A stretch of 39,560 nt of DNA from a virus. The notes under the pieces are model-generated. The model did not search any database, was not told the origin of the DNA, and saw only the letters and a list, made by a program, of their open reading frames with translations. Shown piece after piece: positions 19,362 through 39,560 of this stretch (positions within the stretch are counted from its first letter, which is position 1; each line of letters begins with the position of its first letter). The translations under genes and the position numbers were made by a program. The DNA is taken from IMG/VR virus record IMGVR_UViG_3300009177_000068, positions 1 to 39,560 of that record; one strand, written 5' to 3'.

Positions 19362-19426
19362 AATATCGACTTCTGATTAACCACGATTCTAGTGTGGGCG
19401 TATTGTTTTGGACATTACGCCTACTC

Positions 19427-20194
19427 ATGCATTTCATCAACTCGAAGACCCCGGATGTTCATCCGGGTGCGGTGGACTATATCCGCCAAGCAGCAGACTG
19501 GACGCAATACCATCCCAGCGTCAACGTAAGCGGTAAAAGCGCCTCGCGCGACGCTGGGATGACTTTTGAACACCTTCTCGGCGTTCCAATCAACAGCATC
19601 GCGGCGCCCGATTTGCCGGGGGTGAGCACCGAGGTGAAGACCGGCCGTGACGAGTCTGGCAGTATGCTGACGCTGTTCACGAAGAACCCGCCGCGCGCCA
19701 TGCGGCGCCTGACGGCACGGTTTGGAACAGATGTCCTCACCGAAGAGCGCGACCGCCGCAGCTTTTACCTGACCCATTCGAACAGGGAGACGTGCGCGTC
19801 ACCGTTTGTGCTGCACGATGCACCGGATCGCTTGTTGATCCGCCACGGCGATGAAGATGTCGCGCACTGGACCACGAAGCAGTTGGCCGGAGCGATGGCG
19901 AAGCTGGACAGGCTTTGCTACGCGAAGGCGTCGAGCAAGGTCATCGACGGCCACGAGCACTTCAAATTCCACAGCTTCGAACTCTACCACGGGTTCAAGG
20001 CGCAGACGTTCTACAAGGCCATCCTCAGTGGGGACGCCTACGTCGATTTCCGCGCCCACTTCTGCAACCTCAAGAACAAATTCCGCGACCATGGGACAGC
20101 GTTCCGCGTCAACGCGAAGACGTTCGGGGCGGCGTTCTACAATGGCTATGTCACCGCTGATCTGGTCGAGCCCGCGCTCGCGTGTGCGGCGTGA
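19427..20194 (+). CDS. MvaI/BcnI-family restriction-endonuclease-like nuclease
   Basis: 255 aa from ATG 19427 (MHFINSKTPDVHPG); the frame is open for 11 more codons upstream but no Shine-Dalgarno sequence supports a longer form. GMTFEHLLGVP, then AAPDLPGVSTEVKTGRDESG at about 63-82 and SMLTLFTKNPP are close to the E...D...(E)xK core of MvaI/BcnI enzymes. No methyltransferase is next to it, so it may act in host DNA breakdown or recombination rather than in restriction-modification. Ends in a GTGA overlap with the next gene. Confidence 0.65.
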   Translation: MHFINSKTPDVHPGAVDYIRQAADWTQYHPSVNVSGKSASRDAGMTFEHLLGVPINSIAAPDLPGVSTEVKTGRDESGSMLTLFTKNPPRAMRRLTARFGTDVLTEERDRRSFYLTHSNRETCASPFVLHDAPDRLLIRHGDEDVAHWTTKQLAGAMAKLDRLCYAKASSKVIDGHEHFKFHSFELYHGFKAQTFYKAILSGDAYVDFRAHFCNLKNKFRDHGTAFRVNAKTFGAAFYNGYVTADLVEPALACAA

Positions 20195-28975: not shown

Positions 28976-29215
28976 ATGGTGGTGAAGAGCTACGACCCGG
29001 TTACGATGAAAGTTGCCGCCGAATATCCTTTTGAAGTGACGGTCCAATCGGACGCCGATGTAATGATAGAAATGATGGAGTGGTGTGAAGCCAACTGCGT
29101 CCGGTTTTGGATGTTCGGCCCAACTCTACCCATCAAAGTTTTTGAGACGTGGACCTACTTCATCGCTTTCCAAGACGACCAAGACGCGATGTTTTTCAAG
29201 ATGCGGTGGCAATGA
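28976..29215 (+). CDS. Small-protein paralogue family member, coupled to tyrS
   Basis: 79 aa. VTVQSDADVMIEMMEWCEAN, then KVFETWTYFIAFQDDQDAMF and FKMRWQ at the end: the clearest example of the family layout (helix D-x-V..., W-T-Y-F-I strand, F.DD.DA..FKMRW). The TGA overlaps the tyrS ATG (ATGA). Function unknown. Confidence 0.7.
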   Translation: MVVKSYDPVTMKVAAEYPFEVTVQSDADVMIEMMEWCEANCVRFWMFGPTLPIKVFETWTYFIAFQDDQDAMFFKMRWQ

Positions 29216-30438
29216 ATTCTGACCTGATCCGAACGCTCAACGAGCGAGGTTTTATCAACCAAGCGACCAACCTCGAAGGTTTGGATGCGCTTACTGCTGA
29301 GCGCAAGATCACCGGCTACATCGGCTTTGACCTGACGGCCGATAGCCTGCATGTCGGCTCGCTGATCCAGATCATGGTGCTGCGCCATCTCGCCGCCTTT
29401 GGCCACGAGCCGCTCATCCTGCTGGGTGAGGCCACGACGCGCGTGGGCGACCCTTCCGGTAAGACGGCCTCCCGGCCGATGCTGACCACCGCCCAGATCG
29501 AGCACAACAAGCAGGGCATCGAGAAAGTGTTCCGCAAGCTGGTGGACAAGCCCGTCTTCGTGTCGAACAGCGCATGGTTCAACGACGACACCACGCTCTT
29601 CGACTACCTGCATTCCTACGGCCCGCATTTCTCCATCAACCGGATGCTGACCTTCGATTCGGTCAAGTCCCGACTGCGTGGCGACAAGAGCCTGTCGTTC
29701 CTCGAATTCAACTACATGCTGATGCAGGCCATCGACTTCTACAAGCTGTCGATCCTCTCAGACTGCGCGCTGCAAATCGGTGGCTCCGACCAGTGGGGCA
29801 ACATCATCAACGGCGTCGAACTCGTCCGTCGAAAGGAGGGCCGGGAAGTCTTTGGCTTCACGACCCCGCTGATGACGAACTCGGCTGGCGAGAAGATGGG
29901 CAAGACCGCCGACGGCGCCATCTGGCTCGACCCTGACAAGACATCGGCTTTCGAGTTCTGGCAGTTCTGGCGCAACGTCGAAGACGTGAAGGTCGGAGAA
30001 TTCCTCCGGCTGTTCACCGACGTGCCTATGGACGAGATCACTCGCCTCGAAATCCTCGGCGGGTCCGAACTGAACGAGGCCAAGAAAATTTTGGCCACGG
30101 AAGTCACCGCCATGGTCCACGGCCGCGCCACGGCCAATCACTCGGCGCTGCTGGCTGGCGGCGGCCGTGTCGAGCCGTGCCCCGACAGTATGCCGATGCA
30201 CATCATTCCGGCGCAGGTTTGGAATGGTGGCGTGACGCTCGCGCAAATCTTGCTGGACGCCAAGCTGGTGACCTCCAAGGGCGAGGCCGACCGCATGGCC
30301 GCCAATGACGGCGTCAAGATCAACGGGCACGTCGTGAATGAAGTGCGCACGGTCCTCCCGCGCGCCGCGTTCGAGGACAGCAATTTCCTGCTCTCAGTCG
30401 GCAAGAAGAAGATGGTCGCCGTGAGGATCGAAGACTGA
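29212..30438 (+). CDS. tyrS: Tyrosyl-tRNA synthetase, full length
   Basis: 408 aa from ATG 29212; bacterial TyrRS is about 400-430 aa. Class I catalytic signatures: ADSLHVGS (HIGH motif, 47-50), IGFDLTADS for tyrosine and ATP binding, GGSDQWGNIINGVEL (190-204), and EKMGKTADG (KMSKS equivalent KMGKT, 228-232). The C-terminal portion has an anticodon-binding helical region and an S4-like domain (VTLAQILLDAKL, DGVKINGHVV). All key residues seem present, so it should charge tRNA-Tyr. Complete aminoacyl-tRNA synthetases are uncommon in phages. Composition does not differ obviously from neighbours. It is flanked by phage-type small genes and coupled on both sides (ATGA, TGATG). Confidence 0.92.
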   Translation: MNSDLIRTLNERGFINQATNLEGLDALTAERKITGYIGFDLTADSLHVGSLIQIMVLRHLAAFGHEPLILLGEATTRVGDPSGKTASRPMLTTAQIEHNKQGIEKVFRKLVDKPVFVSNSAWFNDDTTLFDYLHSYGPHFSINRMLTFDSVKSRLRGDKSLSFLEFNYMLMQAIDFYKLSILSDCALQIGGSDQWGNIINGVELVRRKEGREVFGFTTPLMTNSAGEKMGKTADGAIWLDPDKTSAFEFWQFWRNVEDVKVGEFLRLFTDVPMDEITRLEILGGSELNEAKKILATEVTAMVHGRATANHSALLAGGGRVEPCPDSMPMHIIPAQVWNGGVTLAQILLDAKLVTSKGEADRMAANDGVKINGHVVNEVRTVLPRAAFEDSNFLLSVGKKKMVAVRIED

Positions 30439-34297: not shown

Positions 34298-34509
34298 ACA
34301 TCGAAAAGGCATATGCGAAGCGAGAGCTTCTCTCACGGAAAGACCTTGAGCAACTCTATCAAGGCTTGCTGGACGAACTCGTGCGCTACCGCAGGGCCAT
34401 ACAGAACTATCCGCCAGAGCGGATGGAAAAATATGGCGAGCCGTTCCTGAAGCGCCTTGAAGGCAGGATTTCCGAAGTCGAAGCTCTGCTTACGACCAGC
34501 GCAGTTTGA
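34294..34509 (+). CDS. Small helical protein
   Basis: 71 aa, MNIEKAYAKRELLSRKDLEQ..., two amphipathic helices (LYQGLLDELVRYRRAIQNY, KRLEGRISEVEALLTTS), coiled-coil-like. Overlaps the convergent reverse gene by 20 bp. Not recognised. Confidence 0.6.
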   Translation: MNIEKAYAKRELLSRKDLEQLYQGLLDELVRYRRAIQNYPPERMEKYGEPFLKRLEGRISEVEALLTTSAV

Positions 34510-34822
34510 AGTGAAGGGCTTCGCCTACCTCTTCGAAGACGAAGCCTTCCTCGCAAACTTTCCAGCCGCCACGAAGCTCTTCCACGACCCACTGTAGGCG
34601 TTCACCCACGCCCTTGGGGTTGATGCTCTTGTGCACGGGAATGACATGCTCCCCGGCTTCGGACCATCGCGGCAGAGCATCGAGCTTCGAGGTTCCGCGT
34701 AGCCACTCTGGCGGGTGTGGTTCGAGGCCCATCCGCAACAGGATTTGGTTCACCTTATGCAGGGGTGCGCCGAAAAAATCCGCCACGCTGACCCCAAAGT
34801 CGAGTTGGTCCATCGAACTCAT
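34490..34822 (-). CDS. Small-protein paralogue family member, possibly a baseplate-operon companion
   Basis: 110 aa from ATG 34822, which overlaps the TGA of the frameshift ORF (ATGA). SVADFFGAPLHKVNQILLRM and LRGTSKLDALPRWSEAGEHV come first; the end KVCEEGFVFEEVGEALHFKL-RWS matches the C-terminal F.F.....A..FKLRW motif. Third in the reverse operon with the gp26-like gene; role unknown. Confidence 0.65.
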   Translation of the reverse strand: MSSMDQLDFGVSVADFFGAPLHKVNQILLRMGLEPHPPEWLRGTSKLDALPRWSEAGEHVIPVHKSINPKGVGERLQWVVEELRGGWKVCEEGFVFEEVGEALHFKLRWS

Positions 34823-35052
34823 AGGAGCGGTAGACCGTTCTTCTCGACGCTCTTCACGCGGTCGTCGATCTGAGAAAGAATCGACTTCCGTTCTTCGTGG
34901 CTGAGCGTCCACGCTTCTTGGCGGGAGAGGCTCCCGCGCATGTGCCACATGATCGAGTGGATGTGCTCCACCAGATCACGTTGCTCTTTGCGGAAGCTGT
35001 TTAGAAGCCCCTGAAGCTCCCGAAGGTCTGTGATTCTCAGGAGCCGTTGCCG
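34819..35052 (-). CDS. Downstream ORF probably expressed by -1 frameshift from the gp26-like gene
   Basis: The frame has no ATG, GTG or TTG near the end of the preceding gene. The only junction codon is CTG at 35040, overlapping the TGA as CTGA. In the -1 frame after the slippery site (35052-35058) translation runs RQRLLRITDLRELQGLL... to ...KSVEKNGLPLL, about 77 aa. The conserved-looking end RQEAWTLSHEERKSILSQID resembles small tail-assembly proteins in other T4-like phages (memory, not searched). In-frame ATGs at 35112 and 35091 lie inside the upstream gene and are less likely. A rare CTG start is the alternative. Confidence 0.6.
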   Translation of the reverse strand, partial: RQRLLRITDLRELQGLLNSFRKEQRDLVEHIHSIMWHMRGSLSRQEAWTLSHEERKSILSQIDDRVKSVEKNGLPLL

Positions 35053-35987
35053 AAAAAACTTGTAGGATCGAACTCGACCTCGGTGGTCCATTCGTGCTCG
35101 CACTTGGTGCACTGAACGTCGAGTTTCTTGTTGATGCCCGCGCCGTTGATCTCAGCGAGCTTGTCCTCGATCTTCTTCGCCCACGTTTGGCTGGTGTTGT
35201 TGATGAACTCCAAGATGTTGGCCTTGTCGGTCACCAGACCGGAGGGGATCGACACCGAGATCACGCAAGAAGCCACCGCGTCGATGTTCAGCTTGCTCAT
35301 CTTGACGAAACTCTCGTTCCGGGCATCCGCCATGCGCTTTTCGGCCATGGCCCGCTCTTCCGGGGTGCCGTCGAACAGTTCAACCACTTCTTCGGCGATA
35401 CCTTGCAGCTTCCGAGCCTCGCCGAAGCTTTCCATGGCGACCTTGGTGGCCACTTCCAGCGTGTAGGGTCGCAGGCTGACGACGATATCGTCCGTGAGCC
35501 GGACTTCGTTGATCGGGTCCACGAACGTCATGTTCGCCATCATCGACGGCAAGTGGCAGTCGAAGGCGTTCTCGTGCGTGCAGTTCGGGCAGACGACTTC
35601 GATCTCCATGTTCTCGCCATAGGTCGAAGCACGGATCGCCAGAAGGATCACATCCAGATCAGGCGTGCTGACGAGACGGGGCCGACGGATCGCCGGAACG
35701 CAAGAGCGCACCAGTTCTTCAAGGGCCAGCCCACTCATCAGAGCATCGGGCGAGCGAAGCAGCAGTTCGTCGGCCGCCTTCATCGGGAACACCGGCACGT
35801 CACCGGCCAGCGTGGGATCGTAATCCTCCGGCGGGAGGAAGGCGCCCCGCGTCGGTAGCGTGATGTGCAGACCCGGCATACGGAAATAACCGGCCAGCGG
35901 GTTACTCGACGGAACTCCGGCGGTTTTCGGCACTGGTTGGAAGAATTCGGCTTCGTTGAAGTCGTCTTCAGGAATGTCTTTGGTCAT
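35037..35987 (-). CDS. 26: gp26-like baseplate hub / tail assembly protein (T4 baseplate family)
   Basis: 316 aa. LHITLPTRGAFLPPEDYDPT, VFPMKAADELLLRSPDALMS, and STPDLDVILLAIRASTYGEN followed by VCPNCTHEN (CxxC) are the marks of the T4-type baseplate protein family that includes gp26. A second pair, CTKCEHEW, near the C-terminus could complete a zinc site. T4 gp26 is 208 aa. The late box lies upstream with a leader of about 26 nt lacking a Shine-Dalgarno site. It ends FFGNGS with a -1 slippery site seven codons before the stop. Divergent from the tape measure gene, consistent with a role in assembling hub or tail around it. Confidence 0.75.
   Translation of the reverse strand: MTKDIPEDDFNEAEFFQPVPKTAGVPSSNPLAGYFRMPGLHITLPTRGAFLPPEDYDPTLAGDVPVFPMKAADELLLRSPDALMSGLALEELVRSCVPAIRRPRLVSTPDLDVILLAIRASTYGENMEIEVVCPNCTHENAFDCHLPSMMANMTFVDPINEVRLTDDIVVSLRPYTLEVATKVAMESFGEARKLQGIAEEVVELFDGTPEERAMAEKRMADARNESFVKMSKLNIDAVASCVISVSIPSGLVTDKANILEFINNTSQTWAKKIEDKLAEINGAGINKKLDVQCTKCEHEWTTEVEFDPTSFFGNGS
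35052..35058 (-). promoter_or_regulatory. Candidate -1 programmed frameshift site (T_TTT_TTC)
   Basis: On the reverse strand the codons AGT TTT TTC contain the X_XXY_YYZ heptamer T_TTT_TTC. Seven bases later GCTCC can pair with GGAGC (about 20-nt loop) as a stimulatory stem. The -1 frame continues without stop to 34819. Confidence 0.65.
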
Positions 35988-36087: not shown

Positions 36088-38667
36088 ATGAGCGATATTA
36101 CAGAACAGCAAATGGACGATTTGATCCAGACTCTTAACAAGTCTGCCGGATCACTTGGGAAAATTGCTGACAAGTTCTCGTCAAACAGTCAGGGCCGCGC
36201 AAATGCGCGCGACACCCTGCGTCAGAACTTGAATGCCGCTCGCAAAGAAGACACCAAGCAGACACAGGATCACTTCAAGGCGATTAAGGACGCGACCGGC
36301 GCTGTCAAAAACTATGCCATGACGTTCACAGAGTTCGCGGTCGGTGCGACCGTTCTCCGTGAACTCTGGAAGTGGGGCAAGCAGACCAGCGAAGTCTATC
36401 GTGACCTGAGCAACTACGGCCAGAGCTTCGGTGGCAGCATGATCCGCATGACTGCGGCGGCTGCTGACGCCGGTCTACCGCTGAAGGCGTTCGCCGAAGC
36501 GATCAAGCACAATTCTGTCGTCGTGAAGCAGATGGGCGAAGGTCCCAACAGCTTCGCGTCGGTCCAAAAGAACCTCCGCACGATGACGGAGAAGTCCGGT
36601 CTCTATGGCTACTCCATTGAAGAACTGAACGACCTCACCCTCGACTACATGGACACCCAGCGTCTTGCGGGCAAGAACCTCTCGAAGTTGGCTGGACCGG
36701 CATCGGCCGCTGAAATCCAGAAGTTCGCATTGGGCGTCACGGGTATTGCCGACGTGCTCGGAACCGAGCGCAAAGCCGTCATGGAACAGACCATGAAGCT
36801 GATGCAGGACGGCGAGGTTTCGGCCACGATGCGCCTGAACTCGCTTCAGGGCATGGAGGGCTACAACAAGGCCATGACGGAAGTCGTGGCCGACCTGAAG
36901 GCCCAACCGGGTAAGGCCGGTGAAGTGCTTGGTCAGGCGATGTCTGAGACGTTCAGCAACGTCGGCGGCGCCATGTTCACCGATCTGGGCAAGAAGCTGG
37001 CCGAGACCGGTCAGGGTGGCGCCATGGCCATCCTCGACGAGGCTAACCAGCGCGTGAAGGCGGGCGAAGACTCCCACAAGGTGGCGATGGAAACCGTCTC
37101 GAAGATGTCGGACGAGTTGACGAACCCCGAGACTCTGAACAGCCTTCGACTGCTGGCTTCGACTGGTAATGCAAGCGCCAAGGAAATCTTGGCGATGGCT
37201 TCCAGCATGAAGAAATATACCTTGCAGGATATCAAGAACGCCGAAGAAGCCCGTAAGAACTCGGACAACTTCACGACTTTCATGAATAGCTTCGAGAGCG
37301 TCTTCGAGAAGCTGAAGGGTGCGTTCATCAGTGGGTTCCTGCAACCCTTCATGACCATGGGCAAGATCGACCCCGAAAAGGTCAAGCAATTCTGGGATCA
37401 CATCGAAGCTTTGGGTCCGGTGCTGGGTCGATTCGGCGAGCAAATCGGGGGAGTGATTTCCCAGCTTGCGAAGCCCGGAACGCTCGAACTGATCGGATCG
37501 GTCATCAGCGGAATGCTGGCCGTCGGCCGCATCGTCATCAACACAACCACCTTCATCATGAAGATGATGACCACCGTGTTTGGCGGCATCCACAAGGCGC
37601 TCAGCATCTTCGGTCAGAAAACTGCTGACGTGGGAACCGGCCTCGCGGCGATTGCCGCTTGGTTCGCCGGTAAAGCTCTCTTCAAGGCCGTTTTGGGTGG
37701 GTTCGCCCGCATGTTTGGCATGGCCAAGGTGGTCACGGTCAACGGTCGTATCGTCAACGTCAATGGTGGCGGGGGTGGTGGTCTCGGGGCCGACGATCTC
37801 ATTGGTGAAGGCGAAGGCAAGGGCGCAAAGGGTGCTTCGGCCATGGCTCGCCGTGAAGCGAAGCTGCGCAAGCTCAAAGCCAAGGGTATTTCCAAGGGTC
37901 TGAAGGGCGCCGCCCTCGAAGAATTCATGATGAAAGAAGCCACCGGCGGTAAGCTCGGTGGTTTGATGCGCGGTGTTGGAAAGGTCGCTGGAAAGGTTCC
38001 GGGCGCAGCCAAGATCGGTGGCATCGCAGGCAAGCTTATGGGTCTGGGCAAAGGAATGGCCCCGGCTCTGCGAACTGCTGGCAAATTCGCAGGCCCCATT
38101 GCTGCTGGCTTGGCGGCCGTGTTCACGGTGGCTGACGCCGCCAACTCCATCAAGGAAATTCACGATCAGGTGGCTGCGGGAAAGATGACCCCGGAACAGG
38201 GTCGTAAGGCTCTCGGCAAGATCGCGGGCAGCACCACGGGTTCGCTGGCTGGTGGACTGGTCGGTGGCTTGGTCGGCCAAGCACTGATCCCGATCCCCGG
38301 CGTTGGTTTCGCCATTGGTTCCGTCGTGGGCGGGCTGGTTGGCGACAAACTGGGCGGCATGGCGGGTTCGGGAATTGCTGGAATGCTTGGCGGTTCCCCC
38401 AAGGCTGCTGGTGGGCGGGCAAGCGCGGGCGCCGTCGCTACTCCGGCGGGCTCGCCAGTCGTCGGAAATCCCACGGTCATCGACGATGATGCCCTGCTGC
38501 AAACTCGCACCGATGCAATGCTCGGAAACGATAAGGCCATCAGTGAATTGAAGAAAATCCAAGAAGCTCTGGATCGACACACAGCTATTCTGGCAAGCCA
38601 GCAAGCGAAGAATATTCAAGCCACTCAAGCGACGACTTCTGCTATCCGCGCCGGGCAGGGTGTTTGA
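36088..38667 (+). CDS. Tail tape measure protein (gp29-like role)
   Basis: 859 aa. N-terminal 60 residues polar and helical; a long helical part to about residue 440 with many Ala/Lys/Glu; hydrophobic segments near 470-500 (LIGSVISGMLAVGRIVINTT) and 530-550. Then comes a Gly-rich region (VNGGGGGGLGADD), a basic stretch (RREAKLRKLKAKGISKGLKG), and glycine-zipper-like membrane-active repeats (GSLAGGLVGGLVGQALIPIP, GSVVGGLVGDKLGGM). It ends in a helix (KKIQEALDRHTAILASQQ). Length, helical core and hydrophobic glycine zippers fit a tape measure that sets tail length and helps DNA cross the inner membrane. T4 gp29 is 590 aa. The leader lacks a Shine-Dalgarno site. Confidence 0.75.
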   Translation: MSDITEQQMDDLIQTLNKSAGSLGKIADKFSSNSQGRANARDTLRQNLNAARKEDTKQTQDHFKAIKDATGAVKNYAMTFTEFAVGATVLRELWKWGKQTSEVYRDLSNYGQSFGGSMIRMTAAAADAGLPLKAFAEAIKHNSVVVKQMGEGPNSFASVQKNLRTMTEKSGLYGYSIEELNDLTLDYMDTQRLAGKNLSKLAGPASAAEIQKFALGVTGIADVLGTERKAVMEQTMKLMQDGEVSATMRLNSLQGMEGYNKAMTEVVADLKAQPGKAGEVLGQAMSETFSNVGGAMFTDLGKKLAETGQGGAMAILDEANQRVKAGEDSHKVAMETVSKMSDELTNPETLNSLRLLASTGNASAKEILAMASSMKKYTLQDIKNAEEARKNSDNFTTFMNSFESVFEKLKGAFISGFLQPFMTMGKIDPEKVKQFWDHIEALGPVLGRFGEQIGGVISQLAKPGTLELIGSVISGMLAVGRIVINTTTFIMKMMTTVFGGIHKALSIFGQKTADVGTGLAAIAAWFAGKALFKAVLGGFARMFGMAKVVTVNGRIVNVNGGGGGGLGADDLIGEGEGKGAKGASAMARREAKLRKLKAKGISKGLKGAALEEFMMKEATGGKLGGLMRGVGKVAGKVPGAAKIGGIAGKLMGLGKGMAPALRTAGKFAGPIAAGLAAVFTVADAANSIKEIHDQVAAGKMTPEQGRKALGKIAGSTTGSLAGGLVGGLVGQALIPIPGVGFAIGSVVGGLVGDKLGGMAGSGIAGMLGGSPKAAGGRASAGAVATPAGSPVVGNPTVIDDDALLQTRTDAMLGNDKAISELKKIQEALDRHTAILASQQAKNIQATQATTSAIRAGQGV

Positions 38668-38711: not shown

Positions 38712-39560
38712 ATGTCTTGGAAGAAACACTTCCGAATTGTGAATACGAGCGGTTCATCTGGTGGCGCAGTCGCCATGGGATCGACGGTCGATGAGCGAGC
38801 GAGCGCGGGCACAAGCTCGAAATACGCCAGCTACCTCCCCGAAGTTTACGCGGGTCACCCGAACCGGATTCAACGCTACTACCAGTATGACGACATGGAT
38901 CGAGACAGCGACATCAACGCTGCGCTCGACACCATCGCTGACTTCTGCACGCAGTCCGAAGAGCAGAACGATGAGCCCTTCGAGATCGTCTACAATGAAG
39001 AGGCGAACGAGACCGAAGTCACGCTCATCAAGACGAACCTGAAGCTCTGGATCAAGCTCAACGACTTCAAGAGCCGTCTGTGGCACATCTTCCGCCAGAC
39101 CGTGAAGAATGGTGACCAGTTCTTCTTGCGTGATCCCGAAACGGCCGAGTGGCTGTGGATCGACCATTTCGCCGTCGAAATGGTGAAGGTCGATGAGACC
39201 GCAGGCAAGGAACCCGACGAATACATCATCCGTGGCCTCGATCTGAACCGTCAGGCGAAGTTCGCCACGCGTTCAGCCGATCCGTCTCAATATCGTACGC
39301 CGTTTGGCACGAGTCTTGTCCCCGGTAGCCGCCCGCAAATTCCGGGTGGCGGTGGTGGTCAACAGGCCAGCAACGTCTTTGCGATGTCTGGTTCCACTCG
39401 TGACCCTCGCTCGATGCAGCAAGGTCAACAGTTGAACGAACTCTATGTGATCAACGCCGATCACGTCGTCCATCTGTCCCGGTCGGTGGGCATGGACATC
39501 AACTGGCCGGTGGGCGCGTCGATCTTGGAGCCGATCTTCAAGACCTACAAGCAAAAGGAA
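38712..39560 (+). CDS. 20: Portal protein gp20 (3' partial)
   Basis: The first 283 codons are in the window with no stop. YYQYDDMDRDSDINAALDTI followed by ADFCTQSEEQN is the T4-type portal signature. FEIVYNEEANETEVTLIKTN, FRQTVKNGDQFFLRD and WLWIDHFAVEMVKVDE continue the wing/stem region, and HVVHLSRS with WPVGASILEPIFKTYKQKE follows. A Gly/Gln-rich loop near 205-240 appears to be an insertion relative to T4. It forms the dodecameric ring at the capsid vertex for DNA passage. T4 gp20 is 524 aa, so roughly half is present. Confidence 0.9.
   Translation, partial: MSWKKHFRIVNTSGSSGGAVAMGSTVDERASAGTSSKYASYLPEVYAGHPNRIQRYYQYDDMDRDSDINAALDTIADFCTQSEEQNDEPFEIVYNEEANETEVTLIKTNLKLWIKLNDFKSRLWHIFRQTVKNGDQFFLRDPETAEWLWIDHFAVEMVKVDETAGKEPDEYIIRGLDLNRQAKFATRSADPSQYRTPFGTSLVPGSRPQIPGGGGGQQASNVFAMSGSTRDPRSMQQGQQLNELYVINADHVVHLSRSVGMDINWPVGASILEPIFKTYKQKE

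Follow-up and report, generated by a model that had tools for sequence, protein, structure and literature searches.

A predicted -1 frameshift joining a gp26-like gene to a start-less frame in a virus of the Rak2-like circle

The locus and its two predicted products

The window analysed here, i.e., the whole of a 39.6-kb virus record from IMG/VR (IMGVR_UViG_3300009177_000068), carries on its minus strand a gp26-like gene whose 3' end reads AGT TTT TTC GGC AAC GGC TCC TGA, and from this end an open frame continues in the -1 phase. How is this second frame translated, and does the gene have one product or two? The first-pass annotation of the sequence proposed a -1 frameshift that joins the gp26-like protein to the downstream ORF, a proposal that now has the support of 116 of 116 homologous loci, of a peptide conserved from the slip onwards and of a conserved hairpin. 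Judged by sequence comparison, one start very probably serves two products, a short protein (TAC-N) and a fusion created by -1 slippage (TAC-NC), most likely a pair of tail assembly chaperones (TAC); that the ribosome slips at all, how often it does so, what the hairpin does and that the proteins act as chaperones is what we infer from this comparison.

According to the proposed mechanism, most ribosomes would read the gp26-like gene to its TGA and yield TAC-N, whereas a minority would pause at the hairpin and slip back by one base on U_UUU_UUC, where the tRNA-Phe in the P and A sites would re-pair from UUU-UUC to UUU-UUU. The slipped ribosomes would read 77 more codons to give TAC-NC as a minority product, for which a length of 389 amino acids (gp26-like residues 1-312 plus the -1 extension) is predicted. 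Most likely, TAC-N and TAC-NC would cover the tape measure protein while the tail is being built, in the manner of gpG and gpGT of phage lambda, and would be shed before the virion is complete. The features on which this proposal draws are listed in Table 1.

Table 1. Features of the gp26-like locus and its neighbours, in window coordinates
Feature	Positions	Strand	Basis
TAC-N, gp26-like short protein, 316 aa, two CxxC pairs	35037..35987	-	PF12322 T4_baseplate / phrog_150
Slippery heptamer T_TTT_TTC, 0 frame, proposed -1 shift site	35052..35058	-	found in phase at all 116 homologous loci
Predicted stimulatory hairpin, GGCUCCUGAG paired with UUCGGGAGCU, 11-nt loop	35015..35045	-	stem statistics
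TAC-C, -1 frame extension, 77 codons and stop	34819..35052	-	open frame, conservation, gp51 similarity
Tape-measure candidate, 859 aa, phrog_14121 virion structural protein, divergent neighbour	36088..38667	+	profile match, E 4.6e-6
Portal protein, T4 gp20-like, runs off the window	38712..39560	+	profile match

The gp26-like protein scores 68.6 bits against PF12322, well above the Pfam gathering cut-off of 24.5, matches phrog_150 (baseplate hub) among the PHROGs profiles and is homologous to T4 gp26 (E 8.9e-10). Its nearest relative is a protein from an IMG/VR contig (76% identity) and its nearest isolate relatives, at 38-40% identity, belong to Agrobacterium phage Atu_ph07 and Sinorhizobium phage Phosso; on these sequence relationships the window is placed in the circle of Rak2-like jumbo phages. 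An AlphaFold model of TAC-N (pLDDT 89.9), which like that of TAC-C was computed from alignments of window and contig loci only, found many gp26-family matches among viral structure models and no significant match in a structure search of the PDB. When 15 gp26-like proteins were scanned jointly, no stretch was conserved enough for a profile; closer subsets of them worked.

The slippery heptamer and the frame beyond it

The heptamer T_TTT_TTC is present near the 3' end of the gp26-like gene, at 35058-35052, with the minus-strand sequence that the first-pass annotation had given, and it runs into the -1 ORF four codons ahead of the 0-frame stop (35039-35037). Phenylalanine is specified by TTC at 15 of the 16 Phe codons of this gene, and the sole TTT lies inside the heptamer; over ten window genes, TTT occurs 19 times and TTC 164 times. 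The string T6C is found three times in the window, always on the minus strand. Homologous loci were drawn from contig collections, with the aid of peptide patterns from the N-terminal quarter of the gp26-like protein, and from isolate genomes, and as most of the 116 loci were found by these N-terminal patterns, their choice did not depend on the heptamer. It is in phase in every one of the 116, a set that includes the window and consists of the loci whose 3' end is visible. When the loci were clustered by their -1 product at 70% identity, 49 non-redundant ones remained, among which the heptamer reads T6C in 47 and T7 in two (L013 and L017). The codon before FF ends in T in all 49, where it encodes S, N, D, H, Y, A, R, T or G, and is followed by TTT-TTC in 47; the T run has a non-T base just before it in every locus. 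A second in-phase T_TTT_TTC (GAT TTT TTC) lies in the next ORF on the minus strand (34772-34778). The homologous locus L001 has TAT TTT GGC at this place and the -1 frame there closes within a few codons; because it is not conserved in L001 and opens only a short -1 frame, this second heptamer serves as a natural negative control.

From 35052 the -1 frame runs for 77 codons after FF to a stop at 34821-34819. In GC-rich DNA an open -1 frame is nothing unusual, and homologues were compared for this reason: taken by itself, the window offers weak evidence (4.7% of shuffles keep its -1 frame open as long), and it is the comparative data that make the open frame decisive. Across the 49 loci, the -1 frame has 70-93 open codons past the heptamer, as compared with 1-11 in the 0 frame and 0-30 in the +1 frame. 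The -1 peptide is conserved from the first residue past the slip (FF|RxRLL) and further on has a core with the pattern W(Y/H)MRGG..S..EA..LS..ER. The -1 frame is under purifying selection: its substitutions, counted by codon position over 350 pairs, number 7135/4471/13170, with the third position dominant, and between the window and L001 pN is 0.151 and pS 0.433. An alignment of homologous loci had been suggested at the outset as a check on conservation, and the heptamer is in phase in all 116 loci and the -1 ORF open in all 49. Not one of the 116 homologues combines a normal ATG with the lack of a slippery site, a state that would argue against a frameshift and that only distant groups such as Cygsa01 approach.

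By profile-profile comparison, TAC-C is similar to the C-terminus of T4 gp51 (E 6.3e-5 over a 35-column alignment; of 60 column-shuffled controls, none did better than 0.049). Its AlphaFold model is helical (pLDDT 92.0), and a structure search with this model returned only middling helical matches. Pfam and PHROGs give TAC-C no name, and ten members match phrog_18291, a family of unknown function. Likenesses to the "tape measure chaperone" of Moogle (E 1.2) and to ZZ1 gp51 (E 4.6), which came up among viral models, were set aside as too weak. In the public records, the starts annotated for CBB_249 and for SCTP-2 gp87 fall inside the conserved -1 stretch, and the RaK2 record leaves this stretch without annotation. 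The ATG of a 110-aa ORF (34490-34822, minus strand) overlaps the stop of TAC-C (ATGA); this ORF is also conserved in L001, and it matches no known family.

Could the downstream ORF be a separate gene, translated by coupling to the gp26-like gene through re-initiation, for which the CTG of CTGA (35040) and the internal ATG at 35091 are candidates? The CTG does overlap the TGA in the window and in L001, the window also has an in-frame ATG 11 codons upstream, and Atu_ph07 and Phosso have an ATG two codons past the slip that overlaps the TGA. The absence of ATG, GTG and TTG from the junction, as claimed in the first-pass annotation, nevertheless holds for the first 25 codons of the -1 frame past the heptamer in the window, and among the 49 lineages none of these codons occurs within 12 codons past the slip in 33 and within 25 in 12. 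Upstream of the heptamer, the -1 frame of the window contains three start-like codons inside gp26, two GTG and the ATG at 35091-35089, on account of which a mechanical ORF list gives a 97-aa GTG ORF. This ATG arises from a conserved zinc-ribbon tryptophan codon together with the preceding base and is not general among relatives; an open -1 frame start upstream of the heptamer exists in only six of the 49 lineages. Moreover, the peptide ahead of the candidate re-initiation starts is the conserved FF|RxRLL, and re-initiation has no need of an invariant in-phase heptamer. We regard coupling as very improbable.

A predicted hairpin downstream of the heptamer

A GCTCC/GGAGC stem had been noted 7 nt past the heptamer; the stem itself was recovered, but it is slightly longer and closer than first described, with 10 bp that begin 6 nt past the heptamer and include the 0-frame stop. 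In the window it stands out against shuffles (p 0.01), and the fold as a whole, with z between +0.1 and -1.5 according to the length folded, does only modestly better than shuffles that keep the dinucleotides. Over the 49 loci, a sliding fold analysis gives a mean z of -1.82 at the junction as compared with about -0.25 at most upstream offsets, and bases 13-19 from the heptamer start have mean probabilities of downstream pairing of 0.79-0.90, against 0.29-0.65 at control positions. The best stem starting 5-7 nt past the heptamer is significant in 29 of the 49 loci, as opposed to 2-7 of 49 at six control offsets; the Fisher combination for the family (p 6.5e-30) overstates the significance, the lineages being related. 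Stem arms differ from lineage to lineage yet remain complementary, e.g., GGCUCUUUGU/ACAAAGAGCC, AGGCUUUUGAC/GUCAAAAGCCU, CCAUCAAGUCC/GGACUUGAUGG and GCCUCCUGAC/GUCAGGAGGC, and the length of the loop varies widely. The stem measure is not significant in 20 of the 49 lineages, and since some lineages have no clear stem, the hairpin looks like a stimulator in many lineages and not like a universal requirement. It may be that a large group of jumbo phages possesses a dedicated, covarying stem-loop, placed 5-7 nt past the heptamer and often burying the 0-frame stop, which would stimulate the gp26-type TAC frameshift and set the TAC-N:TAC-NC ratio for long tails, a regulatory element not described so far; we give this fuller proposal an even chance of being right. 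In Atu_ph07 (L004) the junction hairpin encloses a second, inner hairpin. A second folding dip, weaker than that at the junction, appears in the 49 loci about 180-200 nt downstream of the heptamer (mean z -1.48 and -1.20), near the end of TAC-C, and perhaps represents terminators in some lineages.

The same T run could in principle act on the polymerase, so that transcriptional slippage would produce a mixed pool of mRNA and the fusion would be translated from an altered message. A run of six T (seven in L013 and L017) lends itself to such a reading, and the resulting fusion would look the same. Polymerase slippage, however, usually requires longer runs, and the run here is T6C in 47 of 49 lineages, held in the one phase T|TTT|TTC and bounded by a non-T base in all 49, with a hairpin at a fixed spacing of 5-7 nt that suits stimulation of the ribosome; we take this explanation to be very improbable. 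That an error of assembly or sequencing split one gene into two frames, as might be feared for an error-prone homopolymer in a metagenomic virus contig, has a negligible probability and is refuted by the identical codon break in 116 loci, including the independently sequenced isolates CBB, 121Q, RaK2, Atu_ph07, Phosso and Cassandra.

The chaperone reading and known systems

The classical frameshifting TAC pair is that of phage lambda, in which gpG, a short TAC, and gpGT, a longer -1 fusion, are encoded beside the tape measure gene and the slippery sequence is GGGAAAG. The window is predicted to have the same design of a short product and a long -1 product, and its tape-measure candidate is divergent, whereas in lambda the tape measure gene lies downstream. 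The first-pass annotation had already read the locus as one for tail assembly chaperones, and this reading gains support from the homology to T4 gp26 and gp51, from synteny with the tape-measure candidate and from the absence of the products from the virion list of a relative. The order gp26-like gene, tape-measure candidate and portal gene is common to the window, Phosso, Cassandra and CBB. The candidate itself is proposed as a tape measure on the grounds of synteny, of a weak profile match and of the presence of its relative in virions: this relative, CBB_251, has 722 amino acids, matches phrog_14121 at 1156 bits and was detected in CBB virions with 29 unique peptides (PMC5259590). At 0.15 nm per helical residue, 722 residues would extend over 108 nm, near the 123 nm of the CBB tail (measured with collar and baseplate; PMC5259590). 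Neither the gp26-like CBB_250 nor the downstream CBB_249 is among the 55 proteins listed by mass spectrometry of CBB virions (PMC5259590), which, as absence from one list, is weak negative evidence. The RaK2 record notes a similarity of the neighbouring gene to tape measure protein, and a tblastn search of phages with the window's candidate found nothing. Taken together, the neighbour fits a tape measure with its chaperones on the other strand. Atu_ph07 is an exception to the synteny, with its gp26-like gene at 469 kb and its portal gene at about 160 kb, not adjacent.

In T4 itself, the counterparts of TAC-N and TAC-NC, gp26 and gp51, come from two separate genes and the heptamer is lacking (FF is TTC TTT), whereas the window has one heptamer-joined locus. 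The 2022 study of Vladimirov, Gautam and Davidson reportedly proposes that several T4-like groups conserve the frameshifting and that T4 has 26 and 51 as separate genes. According to papers that cite it, this study (Virology 566:9-15) identified the TAC genes of T4-like phages (PMC10885494, PMC12846349), and one of them credits it with poly-T slippery sites in T4-like TAC-N genes (PMC12846349). The supposition of the first-pass annotation that no such shift had been described for a T4-type gp26-like gene therefore has to be withdrawn. For the Vandenendeviridae and Andersonviridae, TAC-N has been described as carrying at its 3' end a poly-T site for a -1 shift, with the -1 frame open in all genomes (PMC12846349); the likeness is one of site layout, and the motif there is an invariant GTTTTT as opposed to the T_TTT_TTC of the window. 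A literature search, mostly outside subscription papers, turned up no report of the shift in Rak2-like or Atu_ph07-like jumbo phages and none of a hairpin at the jumbo-phage gp26-like shift. The TAC frameshift of T4-like phages is known already; what is added here is that it extends across jumbo phages and, in many lineages, has a covarying hairpin behind it.

Two cyanophages, Pelagibacter phage Mosig, Aeromonas phage Ah1 and Stenotrophomonas phage Mendera have, as does the window, an in-phase T_TTT_TTC and a TAC-C-like -1 frame. Their TAC-C is shorter than that of the window and either lacks an annotation or is given as "baseplate hub assembly catalyst (gp51)" or as a hypothetical protein; in one cyanophage and in Ah1, these shorter products align to T4 gp51 at E 1e-7. 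The findings indicate that frameshifting is common throughout the T4-like superfamily and that some lineages, T4 among them, use two genes in its place. The annotation can be corrected across the group, in which the C-terminal part is now called hypothetical, given a late internal start or omitted (CBB_249, SCTP-2 gp87, RaK2), and the "baseplate hub" gp26 proteins of jumbo phages gain a testable role as tail assembly chaperones. The approximately 49 naturally varied heptamer-hairpin sites are also a resource for studies of bacterial -1 frameshifting.

The gp26 homologues of Cygsa01, Vi01 and Vibrio K356 (L125, L127 and L128) are without T_TTT_TTC; in them ATTTTC or CTTTTC precedes a -1 frame that encodes a TAC-C-like domain, with TAATG at the stop in Cygsa01 and K356; these phages may use another slippery site or re-initiation. 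Elsewhere on the plus strand of the window are genes for an MvaI/BcnI-type restriction endonuclease (19394-20194; PF15515, E 7.7e-26) and for a tyrosyl-tRNA synthetase (29149-30438; PF00579, phrog_9270).
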